Of a DNA stretch of 64,000 nt, positions 27,741 through 63,557 are shown piece after piece. The DNA is from Fulvia fulva. Lineage: Eukaryota; Ascomycota; Dothideomycetes; Mycosphaerellales; Mycosphaerellaceae. The translations under genes and the position numbers were made by a program. The DNA lies in NCBI RefSeq assembly GCF_020509005.1, contig NC_063013.1:1984001-2048000 (forward strand). Reading direction: 5' to 3'. Numbering within the stretch: the stretch's first letter is position 1; the number at the start of each line of letters is the position of its first letter. The notes below the pieces were generated by a model that was given only the letters and a program-made list of their open reading frames with translations, was not told the DNA's origin and did no database searches.

Positions 27741-27934
27741 ATAGATAGATGATTCATTTACCCGTTATGGTGCCCTCCGGCCCATGCGGGTTTATGTCTA
27801 TATATGTTACTGCATAAGGTAGGAAACCTATTCCTAGGTAAAAACCTCCTCTCCTTCTCTAATAGCTTCCTTGCCATGAGTTCTCAGTTTTCCTTCTATT
27901 AGGGTGCACTAGTGTCATGGTGGTTAGCCTCTGA

Positions 27935-30900: not shown

Positions 30901-31324
30901 CGATGTGTTGGGAGTCACTCTGCAAGATGTCTGGCAGCTGTTGTAGTGTGCCCAGCTAGGTGCTGCTTCTGGAGCTGGGGGGTGGGTTGTATACACTGTG
31001 GATGTGGATGCTGCCTTGGTTGATGTTGAGTCTAACTGAGGTGATGTCTCCCCCTTCCTATTAGATTTGTTCCCAGCTGTCTGTTGCTATCTCTTTGCTG
31101 ATGTACATGCATGTTCTAGGAGTGCCTTGTTTGGCTAGGAGTATGTGATACCTTAGGTCGTTAGCAGTAGATAGTCTGTTAGATTTACTGTTGATCCAAG
31201 GTTCCTAGACTGCAATGACTAGGTGTTTCTTTGGGTCCAGTGCTTAGAGAAAGCTTCTCTGGACCTTGTGCTGGCTTTTGTTGACATTGTACTGGATAGT
31301 GGTAAGATTAGGTGTCTCAATCAT
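27935..31324 (-). pseudogene. LINE-A ORF2 (endonuclease-RT), minus-strand copy
   Basis: The same protein as the intact 1,128-residue ORF2 at 41537-44923, with scattered nonsense codons. The longest surviving open parts are 27935-28888 (C-terminal region with CPCGYLSQNVEHRLLVC zinc-finger-like motif), 29207-29806 (RT core with GIPQGSTMSPILF and FVDDTNILAWS), 29855-30259 and 30314-30670 (linker). The endonuclease part (30700-31324) has the most stops. There is a 3-bp insertion relative to the intact copy (MESGCSPP against MESGSPP), shared with the plus-strand LINE-A. Not functional as written. Confidence 0.9.
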
Positions 31325-32579
31325 GACTCATCCATGCTGGTCTCCTGCTGGTCTTCTCGTGCTTCCTGCTGCTAGCTGCTATTTGGGATTGTGGTAAGGT
31401 TAAGCCTGCTTTGTGACGGGTCTCTTCCTGCAACCACAATTGATTTTGGTCTACCTATGGCAGGGTGGCCTTGGGCCTGTGTGGTCTCTTCTGTTCTGCC
31501 TCTTTTCAGAGGGTTGTAGACAGTCCTTAGGGGTTCTTGGGTGATTGTCCCTGTCTGGAATCTGATAGGGGTGTTGATCCTGGCTTCTCTTGCCCTCCTC
31601 TTTGCCTCAATCCTAGCTGTACAGTCTTGGGACCAGGAAGGGTGTTTCTTTCCACAGCATGCACATCTGGCTTCGCTCTTTGGGGCTGTGCAATTCTGTA
31701 CTTTGTGGCTACTAGCACAGTGGGAACAAGTGTCCTTTTGGCTTGGGCATCTAGTAGAGATATGACCATACTGTTGGCACTTGAAACATTGCAGTAGTCT
31801 ATAGGTGCTTCTATAGATTTCTGTGTCCATTCTTTCACATTCCTAGTAGATGCCCTTATCAAGCACGGTGTTTGCCTGTTCTACAGTGCCTATCCAGAGC
31901 ACTAGAGAAGACTCTCTCTTTGTGTCCTTTGTCTTTCTGTTGACCTATGCTGCTTTTGTGATCTGTAGCCCTGGGCGTACAGCCTAGTTCTAGTCCTGCA
32001 GCCTCTTAAGGTCTCCTTCAATGTCACACTTTGTGGTCATCCTATAGGCAATAACTATATTTTGTTGGTGTGAGACCTTAGCCGTCTTGCCTAGTTTGAC
32101 TGTCCACTCCTTCTGTGTCTCTAGCCTCTTCCTATCTTGCTCCTGTGCTGTGAACAGCTTAAGGACACCTCCCTTCTCTTTCCTAGCTCTAATGATGCCT
32201 TGTATCCCAATCTTCTGTATAATCTCCTTGCCTGACAGGCCCTCAATCTCTTTCTACTCTTGCTAGTCGGAAATGTAGACCTTGATAGCTGTTTTCTAGG
32301 GGGGAGGGTTTTGGGATGTAACTGCTGCCTAGGTTGGTTGGCTTAGTTTCTGGCCTTCCTGTGTCCTCTTCTTTACTACTGCTGCTACTGTCCTATTAAT
32401 GATCTGTCCTGTTTGGCTCCTTAGTGCCTTTAGCCCTCTAGGAGCTCTAAAATCATCCCCTTAAGTGCTCTTTCTAGGTGCTCGCCATCTCCTGCCATTG
32501 CTATTGTTTCTGCCTTCCTGTAGACCTCCTTCCACTCGTTACTCTCCTGCTCCTAGTCGTTTCCTGCGATCGCTATCAT
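31321..32579 (-). pseudogene. LINE-A ORF1 (Gag-like), minus-strand copy
   Basis: It starts at ATG 32577-32579 and ends at the TGA overlapping the ORF2 start. The C-terminal third is open (31372-31830) and holds three CCHC-type knuckles beginning with CFKCQQYGHISTRC, the RNA-binding part of LINE ORF1 proteins. Several in-frame TAG codons occur upstream, one in the ninth codon (ND.EQES), shared with the copy at 57171. Confidence 0.85.
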
Positions 32580-32584
32580 CGTGT

Positions 32585-33190
32585 CACGCCGTTTTTAGTA
32601 GATATATATAGGTAACCTATCTATATTGATTGACAAAGCCTATATAGGAGTTAGTACCGCCGGCGCTTCCCCTAAGTAGCGGGAGCTCTACCTACTATAT
32701 AAAGGCTTCAAAGAAGATCACTAGGTACCTAAGATTAACCCTAATCTAGGACTTTAGTTCTTAAAGTCTAGAAAAGGACAACTTATTCGATACTATAATT
32801 CTAATTATGAAATAGACAAAGTAGATAGAGTATTACGAGACAGCTCTTTTTACGAATTGCCTCGTAATATAGTATTGTCGGCTGTACGCCCGCGCGCTAG
32901 CGGCCGCTAGTACCCGCTAGCTCGATTCGCGCGACTTTATCTTCTCGCGCTTCTTACGCTCTCTTAGATAGTTTACGTAACTATATATATCTTTGCCCTA
33001 GAGATATACTCTAGTAATCCTTATAGATCCGGACTATCGATCTCTACGCTAAAACACGACATATTCGAAAGCTCTTATTAAGGCCATTCTAACGATATAT
33101 AAAGCAGGCCACTGCCCCTAGGACTAAGGGAGTTCTACCTTATTTAATCTGGACAGCTTAAAGCTCTCTTCACCCTATTTCTTTAGCTCT
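32585..33190. other. Unassigned, heavily mutated stretch
   Basis: About 600 bp between the LINE-A 5' end and recognisable LINE-B ORF1. It is depleted in CA and TG like its neighbours. I recognise no LTR, terminal repeat or frame. It may be the LINE-B 5' UTR, or debris of the element in which LINE-A inserted; LINE-C does not continue here. Confidence 0.4.
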
Positions 33191-39902: not shown

Positions 39903-39914
39903 TATATAGATGTC
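39903..39914. repeat. Target-site duplication of chimeric LINE 1, left copy
   Basis: TATATAGATGTC, repeated at 45119-45130. The original single copy lies in Copia-2 RT. Part of the right copy overlaps the ATCT tail, so its exact left edge is ambiguous by a few bases. Confidence 0.85.
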
Positions 39915-39915
39915 A

Positions 39916-40994
39916 GGTCGACGACGAGAATCACCTATACGTGGTGTCGGCTACGAACCTCTCGTCTAGCTACGAGAGAGCCAAGTATTCTCACGCTGGA
40001 GCGTCGTGGGCGCGACGGGCGCGTAGCGTAGGCGAAGCCGCGGCGAACAGAGGACTACTAGCAAAACGGGTATGAAAACTATCCGACGAGCGTGTACTCG
40101 TGTCGGGAGCGAGTCCCTCTTCTTTCTACGTGTAAGAAGGGCGCGGAACCGTGGCCTATACGCTCGACAGGACACCTCTGGTATAAGTGCAGAATTTTCA
40201 CCTCCGGAGACCGCAAACCGAGCGGGCTAAGCGACGAACATTAGACGAGCGGACTACAGAACAACAACTGAGCGGACTATGCAACGGCGTCGAGCGGACT
40301 ACGAAACAATCTGGTGTTTGCCAGCGGGCAATACGGTGGGTAGGTGGACACGCGACGAAGCCTGTAAGGGCCTGTTGAACACCCGGTATAGGAACGAGGG
40401 TTTTGCCTGAGGCACTGCCTGTCCCGCTACACAACGCACCTAGTCTGACATGGTAGATTGCGACGAGGAAAAGACGATAGCCTAAGCAAGGAAAAGACGG
40501 CTGTTAGGACGGGGAAAAGACGTACAATGCAAGTGGATTAGTTCTGTGATCGGGGAGGATCGAGGGCAGGGTGATAAGGAACTTCATATTGGTTAGTAGG
40601 TGGAAACGCAAGGAGTACGCTGCCCGGCGTGGTGTGTGCCCCGAGCAAACCTGCGAGGCATGGACGGCCGCTTTCTAGAGATAGGCTGCGGTAACGCGAA
40701 GGGCGTCAAAACCTGGGGCGTGGTGTACACTGGCAGCGACGGCTGACACTGTCTGTACAGCCCGAGAGGACGGATGCGCATGTCGGTCAATAGAGAGCAC
40801 TAAAGGGCTTAGGCCTATAGAGGTGGATATTGGCTTAAGGAGCAAACAGGGAGGGAGGGCGTAGAGGGAAGCTTTTGCTCCGGGCTAACCTCTCGAAACG
40901 AGGCTACACGGTGGTGCTAGATGAGTGGGAAAGCGCGGTTAAGACTTGTCACCTTATCTCGTAGCTAGCTTGCTAAATACGATTCCTTCCTTGC
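39916..40994 (+). other. Mobile leader module, copy 1 (WEIRD-like)
   Basis: 1,079 bp, GC-rich, beginning GGTCGACGACGAGAATCACC and ending CCTTCCTTGC. It matches 49161-50239 at identical length; I count roughly fifteen differences by eye, all transitions. Short internal repeats occur: GAGCGGACTA three times (about 40247-40305) and GGAAAAGACG three times (about 40468-40530). Open frames in it lack ATG starts or are short, so I regard it as non-coding. It is fused to LINE-A here and to LINE-D in the other copy. It could derive from a cellular or element RNA captured by template switching; the fused structure resembles Magnaporthe MINE (WEIRD plus MGL). I cannot identify its source. Confidence 0.8.
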
Positions 40995-41030
40995 GTGCTT
41001 GACAAGGGCATCTTCTGGGAATGCGAAAGA

Positions 41031-41540
41031 ATGGACACAGAAATCCATAGAAGCGCCCACAGACTACTGCAATGCTTCAAGTGCCAACAGTATGGTCATA
41101 TCTCTACTAGATGCCCAAGCCAAAAGGACACTTGTTCCCACTGTGCTGGTAGCCACAAAGTACAGAATTGCACAGCCCCAAAGAGTGAAGCCAGATGTGC
41201 ATGCTGTGGAAAGAAACACCCTTCCTGGTCCCAAGACTGCACAGCTAGGATTGAGGCAAAGAGGAGGGCAAGAGAAGCCAGGATCAACACCCCTATCAGA
41301 TTTCAGACAGGGACAATCACCCAAGAACCCCTAAGGACTGTCTACAACCCTCTGAAAAGAGGCAGAACAGAAGAGACCACACAGGCCCAAGGCCACCCTG
41401 CTATGGGTAGACCAAAATCAATTGTGGTTGCAGGAAGAGACCCGTCACAAAGCAGGCTCAACCTTACCACAATCCCAAATAGCAGCCAGCAGCAGGAAGC
41501 ACGAGAAGACCAGCAGGAGACCAGCATGGATGAGTCATGA
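41031..41540 (+). CDS. LINE-A ORF1 C-terminal fragment (zinc knuckles)
   Basis: The first ATG in frame is at 41031; open codons begin at the leader junction. About 169 residues remain of the ~419-codon ORF1. It has three CCHC-type knuckles: CFKCQQYGHISTRC, CSHCAGSHKVQNC and CACCGKKHPSWSQDC, expected to bind element RNA in the ribonucleoprotein. The N-terminal two thirds are replaced by the leader, so particle assembly may depend on other copies. Its TGA (41538-41540) overlaps the ORF2 ATG. Confidence 0.75.
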   Translation: MDTEIHRSAHRLLQCFKCQQYGHISTRCPSQKDTCSHCAGSHKVQNCTAPKSEARCACCGKKHPSWSQDCTARIEAKRRAREARINTPIRFQTGTITQEPLRTVYNPLKRGRTEETTQAQGHPAMGRPKSIVVAGRDPSQSRLNLTTIPNSSQQQEAREDQQETSMDES

Positions 41541-44500
41541 TTGAGACACCTAATCTTACCACTATCCAGTACAATGTCAACAAAAGCCAGCACAAGGTCC
41601 AGAGAAGCTTTCTCCAAGCACTGGACCCAAAGAAACACCTAGTCATTGCAGTCCAGGAACCTTGGATCAACAGCAAATCTAACAGACCATCTACTGCTAA
41701 CGACCCAAGGTATCACACACTCCTAGCCAAACAAGGCACCCCTAGAACATGCATGTACATCAGCAAAGAGATGGCAACAGACAGCTGGGAACAAATCCAA
41801 CAGGAAGGGGGAGACTTCACCTCAGTCAGACTCAACACCAACCAAGGCAGCATCCACATCCACAGTGTATACAACCCACCCCCCAGCTCCAGAAGCAGCA
41901 CCCAGCTGGGCACACTACAACAGCTGCCAGACATCCTGCAGAGTGACTCCCAACACATCGTGCTGGGAGACTTCAACTTGCACCATCCTACATGGGGATC
42001 AGACTTTGCACCTGCCCATCACTTCCTAGCTAACAGACTCCTCTCCACTACCCAAAGCAACAACATGCACCTAGTTACCCCAAAGGGCCTAACTACCTGG
42101 TCACAGAGAGCAAGCTCAAGCACCATTGACCTGTGCTTTGCATCACATGACCTGCAGCAGAAGGTCACCAGATGCTGGGTTAACCAGGACTTGGAGTCCT
42201 CATCAGATCACCTCCCAATTCAGGTGGAGTTTGAAACACAGACACAGCAGGAAGGAGACCTAGAACCTCAGCTGGCCTGGAAGGCAGCCAACTGGGAACA
42301 GATCAGACAAGACCTGGAACAGAAGCTAGCTGGACTAGAGACCAGGAGACTGGAAACAGCCTTAGACATAGACCAAGCAGTGGCAGAACTGGTTAGAACA
42401 ATGCAGGAAACTGCGGCAGCCCACACCAGAGAAAAGAAACAGTCACTGTACCAGAAGCCATTCTGGACAAAGGAATGCTCAGAGAAGGTCAAGGCAGCCC
42501 GGCAGGCCAGGAGAGCCCTTACCCAGAGTCACTCCCAGGAAGCATGGGACAGATACAACCAGGCAACCAGAGACAAGAAGGCCCAGATCAAGAGGGACAA
42601 GATGCTGGAGTGGAGGTCAACAGTTGGATCCATTACCCAGAATCCTGAGAAGATGTGGAAACTAGCAAAGTGGGCAAGACAACCCACACAGGACAGAAAC
42701 ATGCTGCCCCAGTTTCCAAACATTGAAGACCAGGAAGGAGTAATCCAACACACTCTCCCAGGAAAGGCACAGGCATTGGGGAAACATTTCTTTGGCACAC
42801 AGGTAGAAGCTGACCTGCAGGATCTGGAAGGCAGTGTGTATCCAACACCACTAGAGCAATCCTGCACAGTGGGAGAGGGAGAGATCAAGAGCATCATTAA
42901 GACACTCTCAGGAAACAAGGCCCCAGGACCAGATGGGATTCCAAACTTGTTCATCAAGACATGCAAGGACCAGATCTCCCCTGCACTGTCAAACATCTTT
43001 TCACAGTGCATGGCCCAAGGACACTGCCCTAAACACTTCAAGGAGTCACTGACTGTGGTCTTGAGAAAACCACAGAAAGAGGACTACACAAAGCTAAAGG
43101 CATACAGACCTATTGCCTTGCTCAACACACTAGGCAAACTCCTGGAAAAGATCATAGCAGAAAGGCTGACAAACCTAGCTGAAGAACATGGAATCCTTCC
43201 TGAAGAACAGATGGGAGGCAGGAAACAAAGATCAACACTAACAGCTGTGGAACTTATCACAGAGCAGATCAAGACCCTGTGGCACTTTGGGAACAACAAA
43301 GCAGCCACACTCCTCTCACTGGACATATCAGGAGCCTTTGACAATGTCTCACACCAGAGGCTGATCCACATCCTAAAACAGAAGGCTATCCCTAACTGGA
43401 CAGTCCAGTTCATCCAGTCGTTCCTCAAAGGCAGAACCACAAGACTAAGACTGGGCAGATACAAATCTGACAGCATGCCTACAGAGACAGGAATCCCACA
43501 GGGATCAACAATGTCTCCAATCCTGTTTCTCCTCTTTATGGCAGACCTGCCAGCAAAGCTAAACTCCAGAAACACATCAGCCTCAGGGTTTGTGGATGAC
43601 ACAAACATCCTAGCCTGGTCAGACAGCACAGAAGAGAACTGCAGAATCTTGCAGAAGAAACACAAGGAATGTGAGGAATGGGCCAGGAAACATGGAGCCA
43701 GATTTGCCCCAGAGAAGTATCAACTCATCCACTTCAGTAGAGCCAGAAACAGACACAATATGCAAGCCCCAATCACTATTCAGGGACACACAACAGAACC
43801 CTCTAGTGAATTAAGGGTGCTAGGAATATGGATGGATCCAAAGCTTAGCTGGGGACCACAGGTCAAGAAAGCACAGGCAAGAGCAGACAACAACAGGCAA
43901 TCAATTGACAGGCTTACAGCCTCCACATGGGGAGCCACATTTGCGAAAGCAAAGGTTATGTACAAGGCCATTGTGAAGCCAGCCATGCTATATGGAGCCC
44001 AGATCTGGTCAGCCCAAGACAAGATCCCAAAGAGAATTGCAGATCCCATCAGCAGAGCCCAAGCCTCCTGTCTGAAAAAGGTGCTTGGAGCATACAAGTC
44101 AACTCCAACAAGGGTGGTCGAAATGGAGTCTGGCTCCCCACCAGCCAAGCTCTACCTTCAAGGGTTGAGATACCAGTATGCAGGAAAGACGTCTGCATAC
44201 CCAGCCCAGCTAGTAATCCAGAAGGCAGTCAACAAAATCAGGAGCCAGTGCACAAGAAGGCACAGACAAGCAAGACCCAATCCAGCCCCACAGAAGCAGC
44301 AGGACCTGCAGAAGTTCAAAGAGCTAACAGAACAGCTGCACCTAGCCCAGCAGGAACAGGACAGAAGGGCTCAAGGGAGAGGATCAGCAGCCAGCCAAGG
44401 GAAGAGGCAACAGTCTCTAGCTGAAAGGATGGCAGGACTCCTCTGGAAGACTGAATGGACAAGAACCCCACAGAGGCCAGGAACCCCAAAGGCACTCCAA

Positions 44501-44923
44501 CAGTTTGGTAGCCACAACTACCTACTGTACTCAGACCTAACCAGGTCAGAAGCAAGCATAGCAATACAAATCCGCTCTGAACACATCGGAGTCAGGGCAT
44601 ACCTGCATCAGAGAAAAGTCCCAGGTATCGAAGACAAGAGTTGCCCATGCGGCTACCTGTCCCAGAATGTCGAACATAGACTTCTGGTTTGCAAAGAATG
44701 GAGTACAGGGAGAGGTGAATGGAGGGCAAGGGCAAGGAACAGAAACTTCCAAGCCATGATTAGCAATAAGGGAGACCTCCAGAGAATTACAAGGTGGATC
44801 ATCCACCAAGGATTTTTGGAGCAGTTCTCTCTTACTAGGGAAACAGAGAGATGGATTGAGGAGAGAAAGAAGGAGGAGGAGAGCAGGAAGAGGGGGACAA
44901 CTCCAGGGTTGCAGACAAGGTAG
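41537..44923 (+). CDS. LINE-A ORF2: AP endonuclease and reverse transcriptase (intact)
   Basis: A 1,128-residue protein that nicks the target and reverse-transcribes LINE RNA at the nick. Endonuclease/exonuclease/phosphatase domain, 1-230: YNVNKS near the start, Glu 41 (QEPW), Asp 145 and Asn 147 (GDFNLHHP), Asp 224 and His 225 (SSDH). RT, about 450-760: KAPGPDGIP, YRPIALLN, LSLDISGAFDNVSHQRL, GIPQGSTMSP, FVDD at 685-688, LRVLGIWMD. The C-terminus has a CX1C...H...C motif (CPCGYLSQNVEHRLLVC) at about 1036. I see no RNase H domain. It starts at the ATG of an ATGA overlap with ORF1, which suggests termination-reinitiation. It is the only intact LINE polymerase with endonuclease in the window. 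Clade assignment to Tad1-like is inference. Confidence 0.95.
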   Translation: MIETPNLTTIQYNVNKSQHKVQRSFLQALDPKKHLVIAVQEPWINSKSNRPSTANDPRYHTLLAKQGTPRTCMYISKEMATDSWEQIQQEGGDFTSVRLNTNQGSIHIHSVYNPPPSSRSSTQLGTLQQLPDILQSDSQHIVLGDFNLHHPTWGSDFAPAHHFLANRLLSTTQSNNMHLVTPKGLTTWSQRASSSTIDLCFASHDLQQKVTRCWVNQDLESSSDHLPIQVEFETQTQQEGDLEPQLAWKAANWEQIRQDLEQKLAGLETRRLETALDIDQAVAELVRTMQETAAAHTREKKQSLYQKPFWTKECSEKVKAARQARRALTQSHSQEAWDRYNQATRDKKAQIKRDKMLEWRSTVGSITQNPEKMWKLAKWARQPTQDRNMLPQFPNIEDQEGVIQHTLPGKAQALGKHFFGTQVEADLQDLEGSVYPTPLEQSCTVGEGEIKSIIKTLSGNKAPGPDGIPNLFIKTCKDQISPALSNIFSQCMAQGHCPKHFKESLTVVLRKPQKEDYTKLKAYRPIALLNTLGKLLEKIIAERLTNLAEEHGILPEEQMGGRKQRSTLTAVELITEQIKTLWHFGNNKAATLLSLDISGAFDNVSHQRLIHILKQKAIPNWTVQFIQSFLKGRTTRLRLGRYKSDSMPTETGIPQGSTMSPILFLLFMADLPAKLNSRNTSASGFVDDTNILAWSDSTEENCRILQKKHKECEEWARKHGARFAPEKYQLIHFSRARNRHNMQAPITIQGHTTEPSSELRVLGIWMDPKLSWGPQVKKAQARADNNRQSIDRLTASTWGATFAKAKVMYKAIVKPAMLYGAQIWSAQDKIPKRIADPISRAQASCLKKVLGAYKSTPTRVVEMESGSPPAKLYLQGLRYQYAGKTSAYPAQLVIQKAVNKIRSQCTRRHRQARPNPAPQKQQDLQKFKELTEQLHLAQQEQDRRAQGRGSAASQGKRQQSLAERMAGLLWKTEWTRTPQRPGTPKALQQFGSHNYLLYSDLTRSEASIAIQIRSEHIGVRAYLHQRKVPGIEDKSCPCGYLSQNVEHRLLVCKEWSTGRGEWRARARNRNFQAMISNKGDLQRITRWIIHQGFLEQFSLTRETERWIEERKKEEESRKRGTTPGLQTR

Positions 44924-45118
44924 TCAGAGGCTAACCACCATGACACTAGTGCACCCTAATGGAAGGAAAACTGAGAACTCATGGCAAGGAAGCTATTAGA
45001 GAAGGAGAGGAGGTTTTTACCTAGGAATAGGTTTCCTACCTTATGCAGTAACATATATAGACATAAACCCGCATGGGCCGGAGGGCACCACAACGGGTAA
45101 ATGAATCATCTATCTATC
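44924..45118 (+). other. Chimeric LINE 1 3' UTR and ATCT tail
   Basis: It holds CCATGACACTAGTGCACCC shortly after the stop (shared with LINE-D apart from a few bases), a stem region AGG TTTTTACC...GGTTTCCT (about 45008-45036), a GGCCGGAGGGCACCACAAC segment, and the ATCT tail (about 45107-45118). These are likely signals for 3' end recognition by the RT. No poly(A). Confidence 0.75.
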
Positions 45119-45130
45119 TATATAGATGTC
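45119..45130. repeat. Target-site duplication of chimeric LINE 1, right copy
   Basis: TATATAGATGTC, partner of 39903-39914. Copia-2 pol resumes directly after it. Confidence 0.85.
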
Positions 45131-47265
45131 TTTAAGAAGGCTACTTTAGGTAAAAGCATTATTCACATCTACTAGGTACATCTCGAGATCTCTCTTACAC
45201 ACTACTACCATAAATACTCGGAGAGTATTACGTCTAATAGTAGGTGTAAAGGTCTCTTCGAAGTCAACCCTATATTTCTATAAAAACCCTCTTATAACTA
45301 GTCTTGCCTTAAACTTCTTAATAGCTCTACTAATTATTCTTTTTATATTAAAGACCTACCTAGAAGTAATTAGACTCGTACCCTTTAGCGGTACAACTAC
45401 TTCCTAGGTGTTATTACTTACTAAGGCAATAAGTTTGTTCTCGATTACCTCTCTCTATATATGTCCCTATTCGGGGTCTCCTACGGCTACCTTATAGGAC
45501 TTTGGGATTAGCACTTCCTACTAATAGGCTATAGCCTACCTAATAGTAGCAAATGTATATTCTTCTACGTCGTTTAGAATCTCCTCTACCTAGCTTATTA
45601 TAGGGTCTAGATAGAACATCTAGGCGATAAGAGCCTTATAGTGTTTAGCCTTATACTCTTTAAAGTTATTATCTCCGTCCCTCCTTAACCTCTTATTACC
45701 TATAACCTAAGGTGGCGCTAGGTGTTCGGATAGGTCGAACTAAACGACATCTTCTTTTTCTTTTATTAGAGTACCCTAATCTCTAAACTTCTAGTATTCC
45801 CTAATATCCTTTAGGGGAGGGGGAAGTTATATAAATAGCGGTTACTATAGTATTAATGACTTAGGTAGGTTCTGTATAGATCTACCGTTATCGGCCTTCG
45901 ATAGTATTAAAACCGCCTTAATATTTTCTCCTAGCCTTCGTAACGGTGTCTCTAATAATCCCCTATCGGAAAATTTCGCCCTAAAGGGCTTCCTCCTAAT
46001 AGGATTACGCTATAGCGCTCGACTCGGCTAGTTAGTAAAGGTGATACTAAGATCTATATCCCCCCCCTTCTTATTCTTAAACTAGTCGACGTAACTATAC
46101 GCTTTTATAGCTTTTATGTCGGGATCCTAGAATAGCTATTGTTTTGTAGTGTTTTCTAAGTAGCCTATAAACACGGCTTCTTTTCCTCGGTTTATTAACT
46201 TGTCTCTCCTTAAGCCTTGAGGTTAGGCTCTTAGGTCTATATAGACTATAGCTTTATATCCCTAGACGCGGAAATGGTCGACTGACGGTACTTAGCTAGT
46301 AAAGGCTTCTTCTAGTAAAAGAGTAATACTATTAATAATCGGACTATTAGGTAGTCTATTTCTAATTACAGTCTATACTTATAAAGCTTCTAGCTAGAAC
46401 TTAACTAGTATACTAGAGTCTTTAAGTATAGCCCGGACTGTATTCTTAGAGGCTTGAATTGACCTTTCTATAGGTCTATTTTGAAGGGAGTTGTAGGCAT
46501 CAGTTGTGTCTATCTAAGTGCTAAACTCCTTCTCCTACTCTTTTAGTAAGGCGAGAATTTCCTTTATACTATTACTACGGATCGTAGACAGAAAGCACCT
46601 TAACTACCGTTCTACCTAGACCTTCTAATCCCGTAGGGCTATAGGAGCGTCGCTCCTAGCCTTTAAAGGGATTACCTACTTCTTCCTAGAGAAGTTGTCT
46701 ATAATCTTAAGCTAATATTTATATCCTAGCCTAGAGACTACGCCCTGAAAAGGCCTATAGATGTTAATAGAGACAAGGGCTAGCCTTTCTCCTTTTCTCT
46801 CTATAGTAGGTCCCTTAAACTTCCTTATATTAGCAAGGGAGCATACCTTATAACTTAGGTATTTAGAAGGAATAGAGATAGGATCTTTCTTATTAGTAAC
46901 TCTATAAAGGTTTCTTAGCAGTCCCTTACTAAGGTATACACATCTTCTATACTATAGCTCCTACTAATCTTCGGACTTAGTATTAGCTATAGCGGTGCCG
47001 TTACGTTCTTAAGAGAGTATACTAGTATACTATAGCTTAAGAATTTCCGAGATCGAGTAGATAAACGGTACTCCTCCTCAAAGTTTGGTCTAGACAACGG
47101 GTTTACTAGACAAGGATTTTAGGATAAAACTAGGTAGTTAGATAGTAAACTATTAGCTAAACTGATTCTACGAAACAAGACTAACTCTAAGGCTAGGAAC
47201 AAACAAGACATTTTCTAAGACAATTTACTTTCTAGAAGGACTACCTATTACTACACTTCCTATAT
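45131..47265 (-). pseudogene. Copia-2 pol, N-terminal part (integrase and RT start)
   Basis: Minus-strand translation: integrase with LVSINIYRPFQGVVSRLGYKY and IIDNFSRKK (about 46690-46800), a catalytic-core region with STIRSNSIKEIL (about 46540-46600) and SLQNRPIERSI.ASKNTVRA (about 46430-46500); then RT with RVDFEETFTP and EMYLVDVNNAF (about 45130-45240). Active-site residues are partly altered by transitions, and stops are frequent. It continues into 39902 across the LINE insertion. Confidence 0.85.
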
Positions 47266-48942
47266 ATATAGCTTATAGATAGCCACCCCTAACCTTGATC
47301 CACTTCCTCTTTCAAAGAGGCCTTAGTGTCCTTAGTGAATCTTAGTCAGTTATATATAATAAAGCACAAGAGTTAAGTAACTACTCGGATAAGGGGTACT
47401 TGCCCTTAGCTTCTATAGTAGAATAGGCAACCTTATTAACATTATTATCTTCTAATAGTATCTCAGAGTCTAATACGTCGTACTAGGTCGTATAGGCCCT
47501 TATAGGCTTACTAGGGGAGGCCTTTGGCTTGCGGCTCTCCTTTATCTACTTTATAAGGTCCGTTATTACCTTAAGGACATTACGAAGGTTTAGTAGTAAT
47601 GACCTCCTACGAGGTAGTAACGGTTGTCTCTTAGTAGGGTAGGTAACCCTAGCTAGTTTGTCCTTGTTCCTAATAGCCTACTAAGCTGTAGAAAGGTATG
47701 GGCACTTGCTTATAAAATAGTTACTACCGTAGAGATAGTACGTAAGCTTGCCCTAGAAACCCTTCCTAGCAAATATAGCTATCCCTTAATAAGTCATTAA
47801 TTCTTGCTTCTCCCTAAGAATTGCAAGAATGTCTTATAGTAAGAGATTCACGTAGGCATTAATTGTATCGCGAATTGAGCTAAATGAGTCTAGTAGAGCT
47901 ACTAAGAGTTACTAGATCTTCCTGTCCTTAGTCTTAATGTCTTGGAACTAAGGCGAGATTGAAACAGCCCTCCTTATAATTGAGCTAAGCTCCTACTAGG
48001 CGTTATCTATTAACTAGTCCTCTGTCATTACGAAATTGGTGTATTGCTAAAACAAACTTCTTCTAGTAGCGAGAAGTCTTCTCTTATATTTAGCTTTAGC
48101 CTATTCCTATAACTCCTTCGTATACCGGATCTTAGATATTATCTCTTAATTATCTATCGACAGATAGATATATATCTTATATAGGGCTATTACATTATAC
48201 CGTCTATACGATGCCTTCCTTATCGCTTAATCTAAAGGAAGGGATGACTCCGATAATATAGAGGGTGTCGCTATAGATAGGGTTATAGCGGGAATGTCCG
48301 TAATAATGTCTTCGAGGACCTAGTTAACCTGCTTTAATACTAGGTGTATTCTTATTAGCTTGAACTATATTTCGTAGTTCTCTCTTATTAGAATAGGTAC
48401 TACTCTCTTTCTTATAAACCTAGTCTCGTTCTCTATTTTTTGTAAGTTAAGGGACAGGTTGGCTACCGTTAAGTAAAAGGATATATTTGGTCGTACGCGA
48501 ACGGATCGAAATAGGATAAACCGAACGCGAGCTTGATAGCGGAGAGGATAGCTATCCGCCGGGAAGAGGAGGAAAGTCGGTCGGTAAGGATCGTATTAGT
48601 ACTAAGACACTATAGCGTAACTCATTTAGTAGAGGGGGTTTCTAAGACACTACGGCTCTCTTAGAATAAACAGTTAGTCGATACGAACGCGATGTCCGGA
48701 GAGCGACTCTTCTTAGTAAGCTTACCTACTTGTCTAAGGTATTAGTATAGGCTCCCTAACTCGGAGTCTAATAGTACCTTACTAGGCTCTTTTACGTCTT
48801 ATATACACCTATAGCACGGCTATAGCTTCCTATATAAGGCGGGTACGGCCTCTAGTCTACCTTCCTTTTGTTCTAAAGAGGAATAACTCTAATACGACTT
48901 TATCGAGGGTAAAACACCGAGTTACTAACTTAGGCTTATAAC
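47266..48942 (-). pseudogene. Copia-2 gag and leader (decayed)
   Basis: Collinear with 151-1833. By position it encodes Gag and holds the 5' leader. No frame is recognisable. Reading left from 48941, GTTATAAGCCT marks the primer-binding site, a mutated match to the initiator tRNA-Met anticodon region. Confidence 0.65.
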
Positions 48943-49150
48943 CTATTAAATAGGTACGAGTTACGTAGTAGTAGAAGACGGCGGATTATATAAAAGACGA
49001 AGAAGGACCTAATAGGATAGCGTATATCTATATATAGTATCGCTAGTATTAGTAGTATAGGTAGATACTAGGTGTCCGGATGTTTACTAGCCTATAGGCT
49101 AGCAAACCCTAGTTAAGTGATCTAGTCATATAACACACCCACACCTATAT
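48943..49150 (-). repeat. Copia-2 5' LTR, truncated
   Basis: It matches 1834-2071 and 38424-38661 until about 49150, where about 30 bp of its outer end are missing and replaced by ten unrelated bases and the second chimeric LINE. Confidence 0.8.
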
Positions 49151-49160
49151 ATATAACGTT

Positions 49161-50239
49161 GGTCGACGACGAGAATCACCTGTACGTGGTGTCGGCTACG
49201 AACCTCTCGTCTAGCTACGAGAGAGCCAAGTATTCTCACGCTGGAGCGTCGTGGGCGCGGCGGGCGCGCAACGTAGGCGAAGCCGCGGCGAACAGAGGAC
49301 TACCAGCAAAACGGGTATGAAAACCATCCGACGAGCGTGTACTCGTGTCGGGAGCGAGTCCCTCTTCTTTCTACGTGTAAGAAGGGCGCGGAACCGTGGC
49401 CTATACGCTCGACAGGACACCTCTGGTATGAGTGCAGAATTTTCACCTCCGGAGACCGCAAACCGAGCGGGCTGAGCGACGAACATTGGACGAGCAGACT
49501 ACAGAACAACAACTGAGCGGACTATGCAACGGCGTCGAGCGGACTACGAAACAATCTGGTGTTTGCCAGCGGGCAATGCGGTGGGTAGGTGGACACGCGA
49601 CGAAGCCTATAAGGGCCTGTTGAACACCCGGTATGGGAACGAGGGTTTTGCCTAAGGCACTGCCTGTCCCGCTACACAACGCACCTAGTCTGACATGGTA
49701 GATTGCGACGAGGAAAAGACGATAGCCTGAGCAAGGAAAAGACGGCTGTTAGGACGGGGAAAAGACGTACAATGCAAGTGGATTAGTTCTGTGATCGGGG
49801 AGGATCGAGGGCAGGGTGATAAGGAACTTCATATTGGTTAGTAGGTGGAAACGCAAGGAGTACGCTGCCCGGCGTGGTGTGTGCCCCGAGCAAACCTGCG
49901 AGGCATGGACGGCCGCTTTCTAGAGATAGGCTGCGGTAACGCGAAGGGCGTCAAAACCTGGGGCGTGGTGTACACTGGCAGCGACGGCTGACACTGTCTG
50001 TACAGCCCGAGAGGACGGATGCGCATGTCGGTCAATAGAGAGCACTAAAGGGCTTAGGCCTATGGAGGTGGATATTGGCTTAAGGAGCAAACAGGGAGGG
50101 AGGGCGTAGAGGGAAGCTTTTGCTCCGGGCTAACCTCTCGAAACGAGGCTACACGGTGGTGCTAGATGAGTGGGAAAGCGCGGTTAAGACTTGTCACCTT
50201 ATCTCGTAGCTAGCTTGCTAAATACGATTCCTTCCTTGC
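49161..50239 (+). other. Mobile leader module, copy 2 (WEIRD-like)
   Basis: Second copy of the leader, same first base, same last base and same length as 39916-40994, with no indels seen. Here it is joined to LINE-D instead of LINE-A. The short repeats GAGCGGACTA and GGAAAAGACG are kept. Confidence 0.8.
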
Positions 50240-50280
50240 TTACGGACATCGACCCGAGCACATACCCGGAACCCCTGGAC

Positions 50281-52311
50281 ATGGATTGGGCGGTTAGCCC
50301 TAACACAGTAACAGGAGTCATAAGTAAGCTAAAGGGACGAAAAGCCCCAGGCCCAGACAGGATACCAAACGTACTGCTAAAAGAGTGTAGAGAAGAGATC
50401 GCGCCGAGCCTTGCAAACCTATTTACCGCGTGCCTACGGCTAGGGTATCACCCGAAGCCGTACAGAGAGTCTATGACAGTAGTGCTACGCAAGCCACAGA
50501 AGGAAGACTATACTCAGCCCAAGTCGTACAGACCAATAGCACTTCTAAATACGATAGGGAAGGTCCTAGAAAAGATAGTAGCCCAGAGACTTACGCAGCT
50601 TGCCGAGGACAACCACGTACTCCCAGCAACACAGATGGGGGGAAGAAGCCAGCGATCGACACTAACAGCAATGGAGCTAATTACGGAGCAAATCCAGACC
50701 CTCTGGCACTACGGCAGGAACCGAGCGGCGTCCTTACTATCCCTCGACATCGCAGGGGCCTTCGACAACGTCTCACACCAAAGGCTAATACATATCCTAC
50801 AGCAGAAAGGCATCCCCCAGTGGGCAACGTCGTTCGTCTTCTCCTTTCTCCAGGAACGGACGACATACCTAGTCCTAGGAAGGTACACGTCCGACCCGGT
50901 GAAGGCAGAGACTGGAATACCTCAGGGATCTACTCTCTCCCCTATCCTGTTTCTAATATTTATGTCGGATCTAATCCCCCTACTCACCTCTCCGCAAACC
51001 TCAGCATCGGGGTTCGTAGACGATACAAACATCCTAGCCTGGTCAGACTCGACAGAAGAGAACTGTCGCCTCCTTGAAGATAGGCACAAGAAATGCGAGG
51101 AGTGGGCAAAGAAGCATGGTGCCCGGTTCGCCCCTGAAAAGTACCAACTTATACACTTCAGTAAAGCGAGAACACACCATAATATGAAGGCGGCGGTAAG
51201 AATCCAAGGCTACGAGACCAAGCCATCAGCGGAGCTACGAGTACTAGGGATCTGGCTCGACCCGAAGCTAAGCTGGAATGTACAGATTAAGAAAGCCCAG
51301 AGTCGAGCGCAAGTCAATGAAGCCTCGATAAAGAGGCTTACGGCATCTACATGGGGAGCAACATTCGACAAGGCAAGAGTAATGTATAAGGCGATCGTCA
51401 GACCAGCTATGTTGTACGGGGCACAGATTTGGGGAACAGGAGGCGCAGGCAAGCCGATCCCGAAACGGATAGAGCAACCCCTAAACAGGACACAGGCAGG
51501 CAACCTACGTAGGGTACTAGGCGCATACAAGACAACGTCAACAAGCACGGTAGAAATGGAGACAGGAATACCACCAATCGGCCAGTACATCCGGGGAATG
51601 AGAATTCAATACGCGGCAAAGACGACAGGTTACCTAGCACAAACCACGATCCAGGAGGCAAAGAATAAGATAGAAAGCCGCTACCGGAGAGGGGCAGGAT
51701 ATAGGACAAGCCAAAAAGAGGATGACCTTACGACCTTTACGGCCGTACAGACAAGCACCGAATGGCTAGCACGAAAGGAGGAGGAGCGTAGGACTCGCCA
51801 GGCCGGCGGGAGCAAGGCTAAGACCCAAAACCTAGCGGAACAGATAGCGAGCTGCCTATGGGAGCAGGACTGGAAAAGGAAGCCCCCTAAGACAACAGGC
51901 CCGATAGCGCTCCGAGCCTTCCAGAGACACAATTACCAGCTATATAGGGACCTGACAAGGGCCGAAGCAAGCATAGCGATCCAAATCAGGTCCGAACACA
52001 TTGGATTAAGGGCCTACCTGTTCAGAAGACGCGCACTAGACATCTATAGCCCAGCCTGCCAGTGTGGCTACCCATCGCAAAACCCAGAACATATGCTACT
52101 ACGATGCCCGCAGTGGGCGAGAGGCAGGGGAAATTGGAGGCACCAAGCGGGAAGGAGAGACTACAAGTCAATTATTAGGGACAAAGGCAACATTCGCCGA
52201 ATCTCTCGGTGGATACTACAGCAGGGATACCTCCAGCAGTTTAGCCTCGCGAGCGAGACGGAGGAGTGGATAGACAAGAGGCGGAAGCGAGGGGGGTTGC
52301 AGATAGGGTAG
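50281..52311 (+). CDS. LINE-D ORF2 fragment: reverse transcriptase without endonuclease
   Basis: An open frame of 676 residues from the first ATG (LDMDWAV); LINE-D coding sequence itself begins at 50240, and the open frame runs back into the leader without an ATG. RT motifs: KAPGPDRIPNVLLK, YRPIALLNTIGK, GGRSQRSTLTAMEL, SLDIAGAFDNVSHQRLI, GIPQGSTLSPILF, GFVDDTNILAWSDS, LRVLGIWLDPKLS; the C-terminal zinc-finger-like motif is CQCGYPSQNPEHMLLRC. The endonuclease domain is missing, so any product could polymerise but not nick its target. It is related to LINE-C (25242) and, more distantly, LINE-A. Whether it is translated is unknown. Confidence 0.85.
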   Translation: MDWAVSPNTVTGVISKLKGRKAPGPDRIPNVLLKECREEIAPSLANLFTACLRLGYHPKPYRESMTVVLRKPQKEDYTQPKSYRPIALLNTIGKVLEKIVAQRLTQLAEDNHVLPATQMGGRSQRSTLTAMELITEQIQTLWHYGRNRAASLLSLDIAGAFDNVSHQRLIHILQQKGIPQWATSFVFSFLQERTTYLVLGRYTSDPVKAETGIPQGSTLSPILFLIFMSDLIPLLTSPQTSASGFVDDTNILAWSDSTEENCRLLEDRHKKCEEWAKKHGARFAPEKYQLIHFSKARTHHNMKAAVRIQGYETKPSAELRVLGIWLDPKLSWNVQIKKAQSRAQVNEASIKRLTASTWGATFDKARVMYKAIVRPAMLYGAQIWGTGGAGKPIPKRIEQPLNRTQAGNLRRVLGAYKTTSTSTVEMETGIPPIGQYIRGMRIQYAAKTTGYLAQTTIQEAKNKIESRYRRGAGYRTSQKEDDLTTFTAVQTSTEWLARKEEERRTRQAGGSKAKTQNLAEQIASCLWEQDWKRKPPKTTGPIALRAFQRHNYQLYRDLTRAEASIAIQIRSEHIGLRAYLFRRRALDIYSPACQCGYPSQNPEHMLLRCPQWARGRGNWRHQAGRRDYKSIIRDKGNIRRISRWILQQGYLQQFSLASETEEWIDKRRKRGGLQIG

Positions 52312-52507
52312 TCATCAGGGCAGGCCCATGACACTAGCGTACCCCTAACAAGGGAAATTTAAGACGACAACGAGGAGGAAAAGACAGGCGGGAAGGAGGA
52401 GGGGTTTTCACCAACACGGTTTCCCCTCTATATATACAAAAACAAGATAGCATAGCTGCATAGGCCAAAGGGCACTACAACAGCTTAATGAAATATCTAT
52501 CTATCTA
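52312..52507 (+). other. LINE-D 3' UTR and ATCT tail
   Basis: CCATGACACTAGCGTACCCC follows the stop; a stem GAGGGG...CCCCTC with TTCACC lies at about 52398-52428; AGGGCACTACAAC precedes the tail. Shared layout with LINE-A and LINE-B. The tail is ATCT repeats (about 52495-52507). Confidence 0.75.
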
Positions 52508-52562
52508 ATTAGTTACCTATAGCCTCTTTAAGAGTAATACTTATCTATTCTAGATAGATATA

Positions 52563-53694: not shown

Positions 53695-53769
53695 TATATA
53701 ATATATAGTCTGCTTTTAAAATACCCTTTATAAGCCTATATAATAACTTTCTATACTTCTAACGTAATA

Positions 53770-57142: not shown

Positions 57143-57170
57143 GATAGGGCGGAGAAGAAAAGAGGACACG

Positions 57171-58430
57171 ATGATAGCGATCGCAGGAAACGACTAGGAG
57201 CAGGAGAGTAACGAGTGGAAGGAGGTCTGTAGGAAGGCAGAAACAATAGCAATGGCAGGAGATGGCGAGCACCCAGAAAGAGCACTTAAGGGGATGATTT
57301 TGGAGCTCCTTGGAGGGCTAAAAGCACTAAGGAGCCAAACAGGACAGGTCATTAACAGGACAGTAGCAGTAGCAGCAAAGAAGAGGACATAGGAAGGCCA
57401 GAAACTAAGCTAACTAACCTGGGCAGCAGTTGCATCCCAAAACCCTCCCCCCTAGAAAACAGCTATCAAGGTCTACATTTCCGACTAGCAAGAGTAGAAA
57501 GAGATTGAGGGCCTGTCAGGCAAGGAGATTATACAGAAGATTGGGATACAAGGCATCATTAGAGCTAGGAAAGAGAAGGGAGGTGTCCTTAAGCTGTTCA
57601 CAGCACAGGAGCAAGATAGGAAGAGGCTAGAGACACAGAAGGAGTGGACAGTCAAACTAGGCAAGACGGCTAAGGTCTCACACCAACAAAATATGGTTAT
57701 TGCCAATAGGATGACCACAAAGTGTGACATTGAAGGAGACCTTAAGAGGCTGCAGGACTAGAACTAGGCTGTACGCCCAGGGCTACAGATCACAAAAGCA
57801 GCATAGGTCAACAGAAAGACAAAGGACACAAAGAGAGAGTCTTCTCTAGTGCTCTGGATAGGCACTGTAGAACAGGCAAACACCGTGCTTGATAAGGGCA
57901 TCTACTAGGAATGTGAAAGAATGGACACAGAAATCTATAGAAGCACCTATAGACTACTGCAATGTTTCAAGTGCCAACAGTATGGTCATATCTCTACTAG
58001 ATGCCCAAGCCAAAAGGACACTTGTTCCCACTGTGCTAGTAGCCACAAAGTACAGAATTGCACAGCCCCAAAGAGCGAAGCCAGATGTGCATGCTGTGGA
58101 AAGAAACACCCTTCCTGGTCCCAAGACTGTACAGCTAGGATTGAGGCAAAGAGGAGGGCAAGAGAAGCCAGGATCAACACCCCTATCAGATTCCAGACAG
58201 GGACAATCACCCAAGAACCCCTAAGGACTGTCTACAACCCTCTGAAAAGAGGCAGAACAGAAGAGACCACACAGGCCCAAGGCCACCCTGCCATAGGTAG
58301 ACCAAAATCAATTGTGGTTGCAGGAAGAGACCCGTCACAAAGCAGGCTTAACCTTACCACAATCCCAAATAGCAGCTAGCAGCAGGAAGCACGAGAAGAC
58401 CAGCAGGAGACCAGCATAGATGAGTTATGA
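57171..58430 (+). pseudogene. LINE-A ORF1 (Gag-like), plus-strand copy
   Basis: ATG at 57171, full length of 420 codons with about ten in-frame TAG/TAA. N-terminal part MIAIAGND then acidic and basic helices (QKIGIQGIIRARKEKGG, TAQEQDRKRLETQKEWTVKL). The C-terminal part with three CCHC knuckles is open (57921-58379). It shows what the chimeric LINE 1 lost at its ORF1 N-terminus. The stop overlaps the ORF2 start as ATGA (58427-58430). Confidence 0.88.
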
Positions 58431-61400
58431 TTGAGACGCCCAATCTTACCACTATCCAGTACAATGTCAACAAAAGCCAGCACAAGGTCCAGAGAAGCTT
58501 TCTCTAAGCACTAGACCCAAAGAAACACCTAGTCATTGCAGTCTAGGAACCTTAGATCAACAGTAAATCTAACAGACTATCTACTACTAACGACCTAAGG
58601 TATCACACACTCCTAGCCAAACAAGGCACTCCTAGAACATGCATGTACATCAGCAAAGAGATAGCAACAGACAGCTGGGAACAAATCTAATAGGAAGGGG
58701 GAGACATCACCTCAGTTAGACTCAACATCAACCAAGGCAGCATCCACATCCACAGTGTATACAACCCACCCCCCAGCTCCAGAAGCAGCACCTAGCTGGG
58801 CACACTACAACAGCTGCCAGACATCTTGCAGAGTGACTCCCAACACATCGTGCTGGGAGACTTCAACTTGCACCATCCTACATAGGGATCAGACTTTGCA
58901 CCTGCCCATCACTTCCTAGCTAACAGACTCCTCTCTACTACCCAAAGCAACAACATGCACCTAGTTACCCCAAAGGGCCTAACTACCTGGTCACAGAGAG
59001 CAAGCTCAAGCACCATTGACCTGTGCTTTGCATCACATGACCTGCAGCAGAAGGTCACCAGATGCTGGGTTAACCAGGACTTGGAGTCCTCATCAGATCA
59101 CCTCCCAATTCAGGTGGAGTTTGAAACACAGACACAGCAGGAAGGAGACCTAGAACCTCAGCTGGCCTGGAAGGCAGCCAACTGGGAACAGATCAGACAA
59201 GACCTGGAACAGAAGCTAGCTGGACTAGAGACCAGGAGACTGGAAACAGCCTTAGACATAGACCAAGCAGTGGCAGAACTGGTTAGAACAATGCAGGAAA
59301 CTGCGGCAGCCCACACCAGAGAAAAGAAACAGTCACTGTACCAGAAGCCATTCTGGACAAAGGAATGCTCAGAGAAGGTCAAGGCAGCCAGGCAGGCCAG
59401 GAGAGCCCTTACCCAGAGTCACTCCCAGGAAGCATGGGACAGATACAACCAGGCAACCAGAGACAAGAAGGCCCAGATCAAGAGGGACAAGATGCTGGAG
59501 TGGAGGTCAACAGTTGGATCCATTACCCAGAATCCTGAGAAGATGTGGAAACTAGCAAAGTGGGCAAGACAACCCACACAGGACAGAAACATGCTGCCCC
59601 AGTTTCCAAACATTGAAGACCAGGAAGGAGTAATCCAACACACTCTCCCAGGAAAGGCACAGGCATTGGGGAAACATTTCTTTGGCACACAGGTAGAAGC
59701 TGACCTGCAGGATCTGGAAGGCAGTGTGTATCCAACACCACTAGAGCAATCCTGCACAGTGGGAGAGGGAGAGATCAAGAGCATCATTAAGACACTCTCA
59801 GGAAACAAGGCCCCAGGACCAGATGGGATTCCAAACTTGTTCATCAAGACATGCAAGGACCAGATCTCCCCTGCACTGTCAAACATCTTTTCACAGTGCA
59901 TGGCCTAAGGACACTGCCCTAAACACTTCAAGGAGTCACTGACTGTGGTCTTGAGAAAACCACAGAAAGAGGACTACACAAAGCTAAAGGCATACAGACC
60001 TATTGCCTTGCTCAACACACTAGGCAAACTCCTGGAAAAGATCATAGCAGAAAGGCTGACAAACCTAGCTGAAGAACATGGAATCCTTCCTGAAGAACAG
60101 ATGGGAGGCAGGAAACAAAGATCAACACTAACAGCTGTGGAACTTATCACAGAGCAGATCAAGACCCTGTGGCACTTTAGGAACAATAAAACAGCCACAC
60201 TCCTCTCACTGGACATATCAGGAGCCTTTGACAATGTCTCACACCAGAGGCTGATCCACATCCTGAAACAGAAGGCTATCCCTAACTGGACAGTCCAGTT
60301 CATTCAGTCCTTCCTTAGAGGCAGAACCACAAGACTAAGACTGGGCAGATACAAATCTGATAGCATGCCTACAGAGACAGGAATCCCACAGGGATCAACA
60401 ATGTCTCCAATCCTGTTTCTCCTCTTTATAGCAGACCTGCTAGCAAAGCTAAACTCCAGAAACACATCAGCCTCAGGGTTTGTGGATGACACAAACATCC
60501 TAGCCTGGTCAGACAGCACAGAAGAGAACTGCAGAATCTTGTAGAAGAAACACAAGGAATGTGAGGAATGGGCCAGGAAACATAGAGCCAGATTTGCCCT
60601 AGAGAAGTATCAACTCATCCACTTCAGTAGAGCCAGAAACAGACACAATATGCAAGCCCCAATCACCATTCAGGGACACACAACAGAACCCTTAAGTGAA
60701 TTAAGGGTGCTAGGAATATGGCTGGATCCAAAGCTCAGCTGGGGACTACAGGTCAAGAAAGCACAGGCAAGAGCAGACAACAACAGGCAATCAATCGACA
60801 GGCTTACAGCCTCCACATAGGGAGCCACATTTGCGAAAGCAAAGGTTATATACAAGGCCATTGTGAAGCCAGCCATGCTATATGGAGCCCAGCTCTGGTC
60901 AGCCCAAGACAAGATCCTAAAGAGAATTGCAGATCCCATCAGCAGAGCCCAAGCCTCCTGTCTGAAAAAGGTGCTTGGAGCATACAAGTCAACTCCAACA
61001 AGGGTGGTCGAAATGGAGTCTGGCTGTTCCCCACCAGCTAAGCTCTACCTTCAAGGGTTGAGATACCAGTATGCAGGAAAGACGTCTGCATACCCAGCCC
61101 AGCTAGTAATCCAGAAGGCAGTCAACAAAATCAGGAGCCAGTGCACAAGAAGGCACAGACAAGCAAGACCTAATCCAGCCCCACAGAAGCAGCAGGACCT
61201 GCAGAAGTTCAAAGAACTAACAGAACAGCTGCACCTAGCCCAGCAGGAACAGGACAGAAGGGCTCAAGGGAGAGGATCAGCAGCCAGCCAAGGGAAGAAG
61301 CAACAGTCTCTAGCTGAAAGGATGGCAGGACTCCTCTGGAAGACTGAATGGACAAGAACCCTACAGAGGCCAGGAACCCCAAAGGCACTCTAACAGTTTG

Positions 61401-61816
61401 GTAGCCACAACTACCTACTGTACTCAGACCTGACTAGGTCAGAAGCAAGCATAGCAATACAAATCCGCTCTGAACACATCGGAGTCAGGGCATACCTACA
61501 TCAGAGAAAAGTCCCAGGTATCGAAGACAAGAGTTGCCTATGCGGCTACCTGTCCCAGAATGTCGAACATAGACTTCTGGTTTGCAAAGAATGGAGTACA
61601 GGGAGAGGTGAATGGAGGGCAAGGGCAAGGAACAGAAACTTCCAAGCCATGATTAGCAATAAGGGAGACCTCCAGAGAATTACAAGGTGGATCATCCACT
61701 AAGGATTTTTGGAGCAGTTCTCTCTTACTAGGGAAACAGAGAGATGGATTGAGGAGAGAAAGAAGGAGGAGGAGAGCAGGAAGAGGGGGACAACTCCAGG
61801 GTTGTAGACAAGGTAG
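58427..61816 (+). pseudogene. LINE-A ORF2 (endonuclease-RT), plus-strand copy
   Basis: Aligned end to end with the intact ORF2 at 41537. The endonuclease region has several TAG/TAA; long open parts remain at 58955-59908 (SSDH of the endonuclease, linker and KAPGPDGIP), 59945-60544 (RT palm with FVDDTNILAWS) and 60863-61393. A TAA at 59906-59908 is shared with the minus-strand copy. One glutamine-to-stop change follows the FVDD block near 60542. Not functional as written. Confidence 0.92.
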
Positions 61817-62029
61817 TCAGAGGCTAACCACCATGACACTAGTGCACCCTAATAGAAGGAAAACTGAGAACTCATGGCAAGGAAGCTATTAGAGAAGGAG
61901 AGGAGGTTTTTACCTAGGAATAGGTTTCCTACCTTATGCAGTAACATATATAGACATAAACCCGTATAGGCCGGAGGGCACTACAACGGGTAAATGAATC
62001 ATCTATCTATCTATATAGTAGGTAGATAG

Positions 62030-62421
62030 GTTACTTATAAATAAGCTCATCCTTCCTAGCCTAAAAGTAATATCTAGCCTTATAATTGTTACTAGCTATA
62101 TCTAAGTACTATTAATACTCTAGTACTCTACCTTATTACACCTCTTATCTATATAGCTTAAAGGTTCAGGGGCCTTATAGCTATCTATAGGTGAGTATAT
62201 AGGTGCTATCTTCTTATAGTTTATTCCTATCTTAGCTAGGCTGTCCCTAATAAAGTGTCCTTAGTCAAGTTTTAGGATTCCTCTCTTCCTATCCCTTATA
62301 ACTCTTATACTAAGGATCTTTTTAGGTTTACCTAGATCTTTGATCTTAAGGATCTTACTAAGTTCTCTTTTAAACTAGAGAACATCTATTAACTCTAGTA
62401 TAGCAATTAGAATGTTATCTA
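62030..62421 (-). pseudogene. Copia fragment, RT C-terminal half (Copia-3)
   Basis: Minus-strand translation begins IDNILIAILELIDVL, the position of the YVDD box with the second Asp changed to Asn, then FKRELSKILKIKDLGKPKKIL and RGILKLD.GHFIRDSLAKIGI, typical of copia RT. It is homologous to 39300-39720 of Copia-2 but divergent, so a separate family. Left boundary approximate. Confidence 0.75.
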
Positions 62422-62423
62422 TA

Positions 62424-63555: not shown

Positions 63556-63557
63556 TA

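Follow-up and report, generated by a model that had tools for sequence, protein, structure and literature searches.

Two copies of one leader in the window

The window, a 64-kb stretch of Fulvia fulva (C. fulvum) DNA of 64,000 nucleotides, contains two copies of one leader, both on the plus strand. As had been noticed from the sequence alone, the copies at 39916-40994 and 49161-50239 have the same ends and the same length (1,079 bp), and the 'about fifteen transitions' said to separate them proved to be 16 differences, all of them transitions. Their 5′ flanks and 3′ continuations are unrelated to each other. Leader copy 1 (39916..40994, possibly ending at 40993), which carries RIP-type changes, continues into a 5′-truncated LINE-A (40995..45125, plus strand) inside ORF1. 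This LINE retains the end of ORF1 with a zinc knuckle, an intact ORF2 of 1,128 aa with endonuclease and reverse transcriptase (RT) domains (41537-44923, plus strand) and an (ATCT)n tail, and the whole unit of leader and LINE-A is enclosed by a 13-bp target-site duplication (39903..39915 and 45119..45131, plus strand) with one mismatch between its two copies. Leader copy 2 (49161..50239) continues into a 5′-truncated LINE-D (50240..52507, plus strand) inside ORF2, upstream of the RT domain; this LINE also ends in an (ATCT)n tail. We looked for a matching target-site duplication around the leader and LINE-D insertion and found none. Measured distances to the LINE 3′ ends confirmed that neither junction is a natural LINE 5′ end: they are 4,134 bp for the LINE-A junction (reference copy 4,854 bp long) and 2,269 bp for the LINE-D junction (element of ∼5,113 bp).

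Two LINE-A copies of 4.85 kb lack the leader, one on the plus strand (57165..62018, the family reference) and one on the minus strand (27734..32585). CTATATACGTCCGGG occurs both in the 3′ flank of the minus-strand copy and in the 5′ flank of the plus-strand one, which looks as if the stretch between the two inverted copies had itself been inverted; their reciprocal flank pair shows no visible match. A further inverted pair (52559-53698 and 62420-63559; 1,140 bp, 99.3% identical, with ∼73-bp terminal inverted repeats) is probably a DNA transposon. For the protein encoded by the LINE-A ORF2 at 41537-44923, identity is 91% with a reverse transcriptase in a Stemphylium lycopersici record (on a 5.1-kb contig) and 61% with the best record labelled Passalora fulva; horizontal transfer or contamination may be read from the 91% match.

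Leader copies and their partners across the genome

We searched the assembly (67,169,167 bp in 14 contigs) for the two ends of the leader. With up to three mismatches, the 3′ 38-mer occurred 584 times and the 5′ 40-mer 420 times in the 67.17-Mb genome, and this recurrence is not due to chance, since the reversed-pattern controls gave 0 in both cases. The gap between 584 and 420 will be owed at least partly to mutation, given that an old leader copy can have as many as 103 C>T/G>A changes. Among the exact 5′ ends listed on contigs C1-C5, 73 of 84 had a listed exact 3′ end within 1,200 bp, 72 of these 73 at the offset of a full-length leader. To avoid circularity, we also picked copies via one end and then inspected the opposite one. 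All 20 copies picked by the 3′ end start at leader base 1, and 10 of the 11 picked by the 5′ end finish at base 1077-1079, the eleventh (L102/L113) being interrupted at base 609 by another sequence. Junctions are thus not scattered at random along the leader; its ends are fixed while the LINE entry points vary (53 distinct sites, see below), as the sequence-only reading had supposed. The final C is missing at junctions with T as the first LINE base (L098, L103, L105, L107), which suggests that the leader itself may stop at G1078 and that base 1079 may in many cases be the first LINE base. The leader always lies at the 5′ end of the LINE and in the same orientation. Its longest stop-free frame is 101 codons, and its 3′ terminus reads ...CCTTG(C), without (ATCT)n.

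To identify the partners, we read 106 leader 3′ ends, most of them picked for an intact 3′ end, so that they test the partner and not the end. Directly joined to an identified LINE or to another leader were 103; two are joined to a probable LINE (L129 and L042) and one is interrupted by other DNA. Ninety junction sequences were mapped, leaving 88 insertions after removal of second views (L001 is window copy 1, and L008 is L023). Their partners are LINE-D (38), B (24), A (12), C (11), E (1), another leader (1) and one uncertain element (L042, a 43-bp match to LINE-C at 88% only), a tally that includes four junctions placed only through longer stretches. The eleven copies picked by the 5′ end add B (6), D, A, C and another leader (1 each) and the interrupted one, and the total of 106 also takes in L088, L119, L120, L125, L127, L129 and L131. 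Three of the LINE-C cases (L030-L032) represent a single tandem array of one chimera; their leaders, at C1:8826062, 8830729 and 8835400, are spaced by 4,667 and 4,671 bp and have the same LINE-C junction. LINE E is one degenerate element, in L019, which is ∼70% like D and was used as its own reference. L129, placed solely via a FIDDTNIL-like RT motif read by eye, has its leader joined (C3:2253390 onward) to RT-like sequence, unmatched by any of the five LINE references, that may represent an additional LINE family. The base after G1078 is unusual in L125, L127, L129 and L131, all of which are LINE joins. Leaders are also found on nearly full-length LINEs (L055, L127, L131), and three more old copies lie outside the downstream tally (L016:1-528, L022:6195-7248 and one beside L112).

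We then examined 68 further junctions, 66 of them as 13-mers; the remaining two, on C5, were exact LINE matches. Exact matches to LINE or leader were obtained for 42 of the 66 and loose ones for 62 (D 27, A 20, B 10, C 4, leader 1), with four unplaced. Only the exact placements are strong, because shuffled control 13-mers (n=84), which gave 0 exact matches, also placed loosely in 16 cases. The suggestion that one leader is used by two LINE families was therefore borne out and exceeded: the leader is common to at least four families (A-D), whose compared ORF2 pieces are 46-66% identical.

The commonest state among 33 aligned leaders is represented by six byte-identical copies, found on families B and D. 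The six oldest leaders carry 57-103 C>T/G>A changes versus only 0-4 transversions. In 22 low-divergence copies (13 informative columns), one donor variant was common to D, C and B insertions, and at each of the recurrent entry sites D1508, D2235 and D2852 different donor variants were present. Judging from these sequences, the leader is acquired anew and not inherited with the LINE, because variants cross LINE families and recurrent entry sites carry different variants.

What the leader is copied from was sought in several ways. No solitary leader was present among the 106 3′ ends read, and no donor gene or locus was found, most of the 584 leader ends having been seen as pattern counts only; the donor locus may be among these. 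The leader had no Rfam match at E up to 10 and no unusual fold in 13 windows of ∼200 nt (z from −1.01 to +1.53), the whole leader giving z=+1.87 (25 shuffles). A small-motif search for Pol III boxes, an Sm site and a telomere template gave nothing convincing. We considered a ribosomal spacer for its high expression, fixed ends and collapse in assemblies. PMC9453070 reports five rDNA units on Chr4, together spanning 44.5 kb; the 15 exact leader 3′ ends on C4 (exact ends only, copies with mismatches being left out) show no five-unit series, and this candidate was rejected. The leader was also rejected as a SINE, as it has no LINE-like (ATCT)n tail and no solitary copy among the 106 ends. As to the abundance of such LINEs, LINE/Tad1 elements are given as 29.2-31.0% of repeats in four other C. 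fulvum isolates (PMC10823647).

Junctions, truncation and duplications

Junction context was analysed where the LINE sequence upstream is known, which holds for 78 of 86 sequences (8 lack it) and gives 53 distinct sites. LINE entry points vary but usually follow RY|CY, mostly RYC|C with A at −3. A purine is found at −3 in 49 sites (A in 35, G in 14), a pyrimidine at −2 in 52 and a pyrimidine at +1 in 47 (C in 37); C at −1 was counted in 51, a number that is biased because most copies were picked by a leader end including C1079, while the −3 and −2 bases are not in the product. YC at −2/−1 occurred in 50 of the 53 sites versus 5.8 expected (maximum 14 in 1,000 draws). Junctions at which the LINE starts with T also have C before the cut, though not always the preceding purine. 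Leader-to-leader joins read AT|C (at 168), AC|C (298) and AC|G (371). The join to another leader at 168 was seen twice on C9 (L088; C9:1264257), which may reflect a hot spot or one duplicated event.

The purine-pyrimidine preference just upstream of the LINE start, outside the product, would suit a nuclease. It is conceivable, then, that LINE RNA is cut at RY|CY and that ligation or trans-splicing then attaches its 3′ fragment to leader RNA, the chimera being reverse transcribed afterwards; the joins, which look clean and show no obvious extra bases, would agree with this. We, however, consider such joining at the RNA level unlikely. The AG expected of a spliceosomal acceptor was not seen on the LINE side of the 53 sites. 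Furthermore, the truncation point of L118, a leaderless LINE-D copy, coincides with that of the leader joins L004 and L082, indicating that the stop does not need the leader, and a truncation of this kind needs no joining step. The published model for the comparable MINE chimeras of Magnaporthe (PMC2104539) is likewise template jumping.

To compare LINE copies with and without leader, we listed the exact LINE-D 3′ ends on C1-C5. Of these 96, 37 have a listed leader upstream, 26 have a LINE-D 5′ end upstream (25 at ∼5.06 kb and one at 4.6 kb), none has both and 33 have neither; among exact LINE-A 3′ ends a listed leader was found on 7 of 55, and both shares (37/96 and 7/55) are lower bounds, because the lists omit mutated leaders. 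Twelve of the 33 LINE-D copies without a listed leader were read: two have a mutated leader, five are truncated without leader (duplications are visible in four of these five), one is nearly full length and four run past the stretch. The leader is thus common on truncated LINE-D copies yet not required, and the five leaderless truncations show that a switch to it is not obligatory.

The same counts bear on the possibility that the leader is simply the ordinary 5′ UTR of a LINE, which had been named as fatal to the sequence-only reading: none of the 26 full-length LINE-D copies has a listed leader. Its constant position at the 5′ end and constant orientation could still point to the 5′ UTR of an ancestral LINE, with the chimeras as internal-deletion derivatives, but these 26 copies, the identical leaders on families whose ORF2 is 46-66% identical, and the existence of leader-to-leader joins make this highly improbable.

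In 19 of 20 targeted insertions, for each of which 6 kb of sequence was taken, the unit of leader and LINE is bounded by exact duplications of 11-16 bp. An independent mobile element inserting at LINE 5′ ends, which the high copy number and fixed ends of the leader might suggest, is hardly credible given that these duplications do not enclose the leader alone and that no leader was solitary among the 106 3′ ends, one being interrupted by other DNA. LINE copies of types A-D have (ATCT)n 3′ tails. Their upstream flanks (30 compared) are rich in T/A and show CTATAT-like starts around −15. Leaderless full-length LINEs have a short copy-specific stretch between the duplication and the LINE start, which measures 22, 31 and 37 nt in the LINE-D copies L094, L095 and L096 (copies with duplications); such a stretch is also present at the LINE-A 5′ ends at 57165 and 32585 of the window.

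Proposed template switching to a discrete RNA

The reading that we favour, with a probability of roughly 0.8, is that a single discrete non-coding RNA offers its 3′ end to LINE reverse transcriptases, which move onto it from a stalled LINE RNA. The donor would be an RNA of ∼1,078 nt supplied in trans, and the leader its DNA copy. A Tad1-type LINE reverse transcriptase would start on its own RNA at the (ATCT)n tail, primed at CTATAT-like targets, halt inside the LINE RNA, usually in an RY|CY context, switch onto the 3′ end of the donor RNA and copy it to its 5′ end, the insertion then being completed with a duplication of ∼11-16 bp. At least four LINE families sharing a nucleus would draw on the same donor. 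Template switching had already been proposed for the two window copies, and at the level of DNA it is supported by the fixed ends, variable entry points, whole-unit duplications, cross-family variants, recurrent sites and leader-to-leader joins. Against it we count that no donor locus turned up, that clean joins would equally result from ligation of RNA, that the LINE-D unit of the window is without a matching duplication, and that 5 of 12 copies are truncated leaderless. Both the timing of the join, during reverse transcription, and the nature of the donor as a free RNA are inferred from DNA; a template switch combined with a target-primed start appears to be the most economical account.

The MINE elements of Magnaporthe, named in the sequence-only reading as the closest known case, are indeed alike in architecture, although the strict published junction motif is not shared. 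As described in PMC2104539, WEIRD, a non-coding sequence of 1,113 nt, is copied full length at the 5′ end of the Magnaporthe grisea chimeras, which comprise 31 WEIRD-MGL copies, one WEIRD-MgSINE and one tripartite element; the conclusion of that paper also names a LINE called Enigma. Both systems have a full-length, fixed-end, non-coding 5′ part from an RNA of ∼1.1 kb, a LINE whose truncation point varies but has hot spots, and duplications round the whole unit; in both, no solitary donor locus was found and a pyrimidine precedes the join, and the tripartite MINE, a double switch (PMC2104539), may be counted as a further likeness. The MINE junction consensus given there is GCC*A/U, whereas C. 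fulvum sites are mostly RYC|C with A at −3, and the strict consensus does not hold at our 53 sites. In our own count of 18 rows of the Magnaporthe Table 3, some of which share a site, a purine is at −3 in 18, a pyrimidine at −2 in 17 and a pyrimidine at −1 in 18. Compared by architecture, and with WEIRD known by its description, the leader system appears to work like MINE. In contrast to MINE, 584 3′ ends of the leader were counted here, LINEs of at least four families carry it, and leaders are also joined to one another; this scale, the sharing among families, these joins and the looser common junction context go beyond MINE.

SINEs are non-coding RNAs multiplied by LINE machinery, for which they serve as first templates via a LINE-like 3′ end. 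The leader would resemble them in being a non-coding RNA spread by LINE machinery but differ in that its RNA is the second template and is without a LINE-like tail; Mg-SINE is described in PMC2104539. In mammals, chimeras of L1 with U6 or further small RNAs also combine a LINE 3′ part with a full-length cellular RNA (PMC13174262, PMC4476161); there, however, many donor RNAs take part in occasional events, in contrast to the one 1.1-kb RNA in every leader-bearing copy examined here, which is found on several LINE families. RNA-to-RNA template jumping in vitro goes to the 3′ end of another RNA, as here, and is a possible biochemical basis, but it is end to end, while the C. fulvum joins are mostly from internal sites with a sequence preference. 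Chimeric retrogenes formed via template switching are reportedly known already. We found no report of chimeras of this kind in C. fulvum, the words 'chimeric' and 'chimer' being absent from the main texts of PMC9453070 and PMC10823647, and, among the titles listed by our literature searches outside subscription journals, none concerned fungal leader-LINE chimeras other than those of Magnaporthe.

C. fulvum thus provides a second such system, in another fungal class, with roughly 18 times as many leader copies as the 31 MINEs. The WEIRD puzzle becomes testable by comparison: the identity of the donor, the reason for its choice over other RNAs, and whether it assists truncated LINEs in completing their insertion. 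More than 50 natural stop sites with a clear sequence rule are now available for Tad1-type reverse transcription. We tentatively suggest, as a possibility that we rate as rather doubtful, that the leader RNA, instead of being a chance bystander, is specialised as a trans-acting partner or parasite of LINEs. It would be a non-autonomous retroelement, spreading solely as a second template via a 3′ acceptor and a 5′ finishing signal and without mimicry of the LINE tail. If this is true, stalled insertions could be completed by such a 5′-end SINE for any LINE in the nucleus, and elements of this kind might occur widely among filamentous ascomycetes, with WEIRD as a further example.
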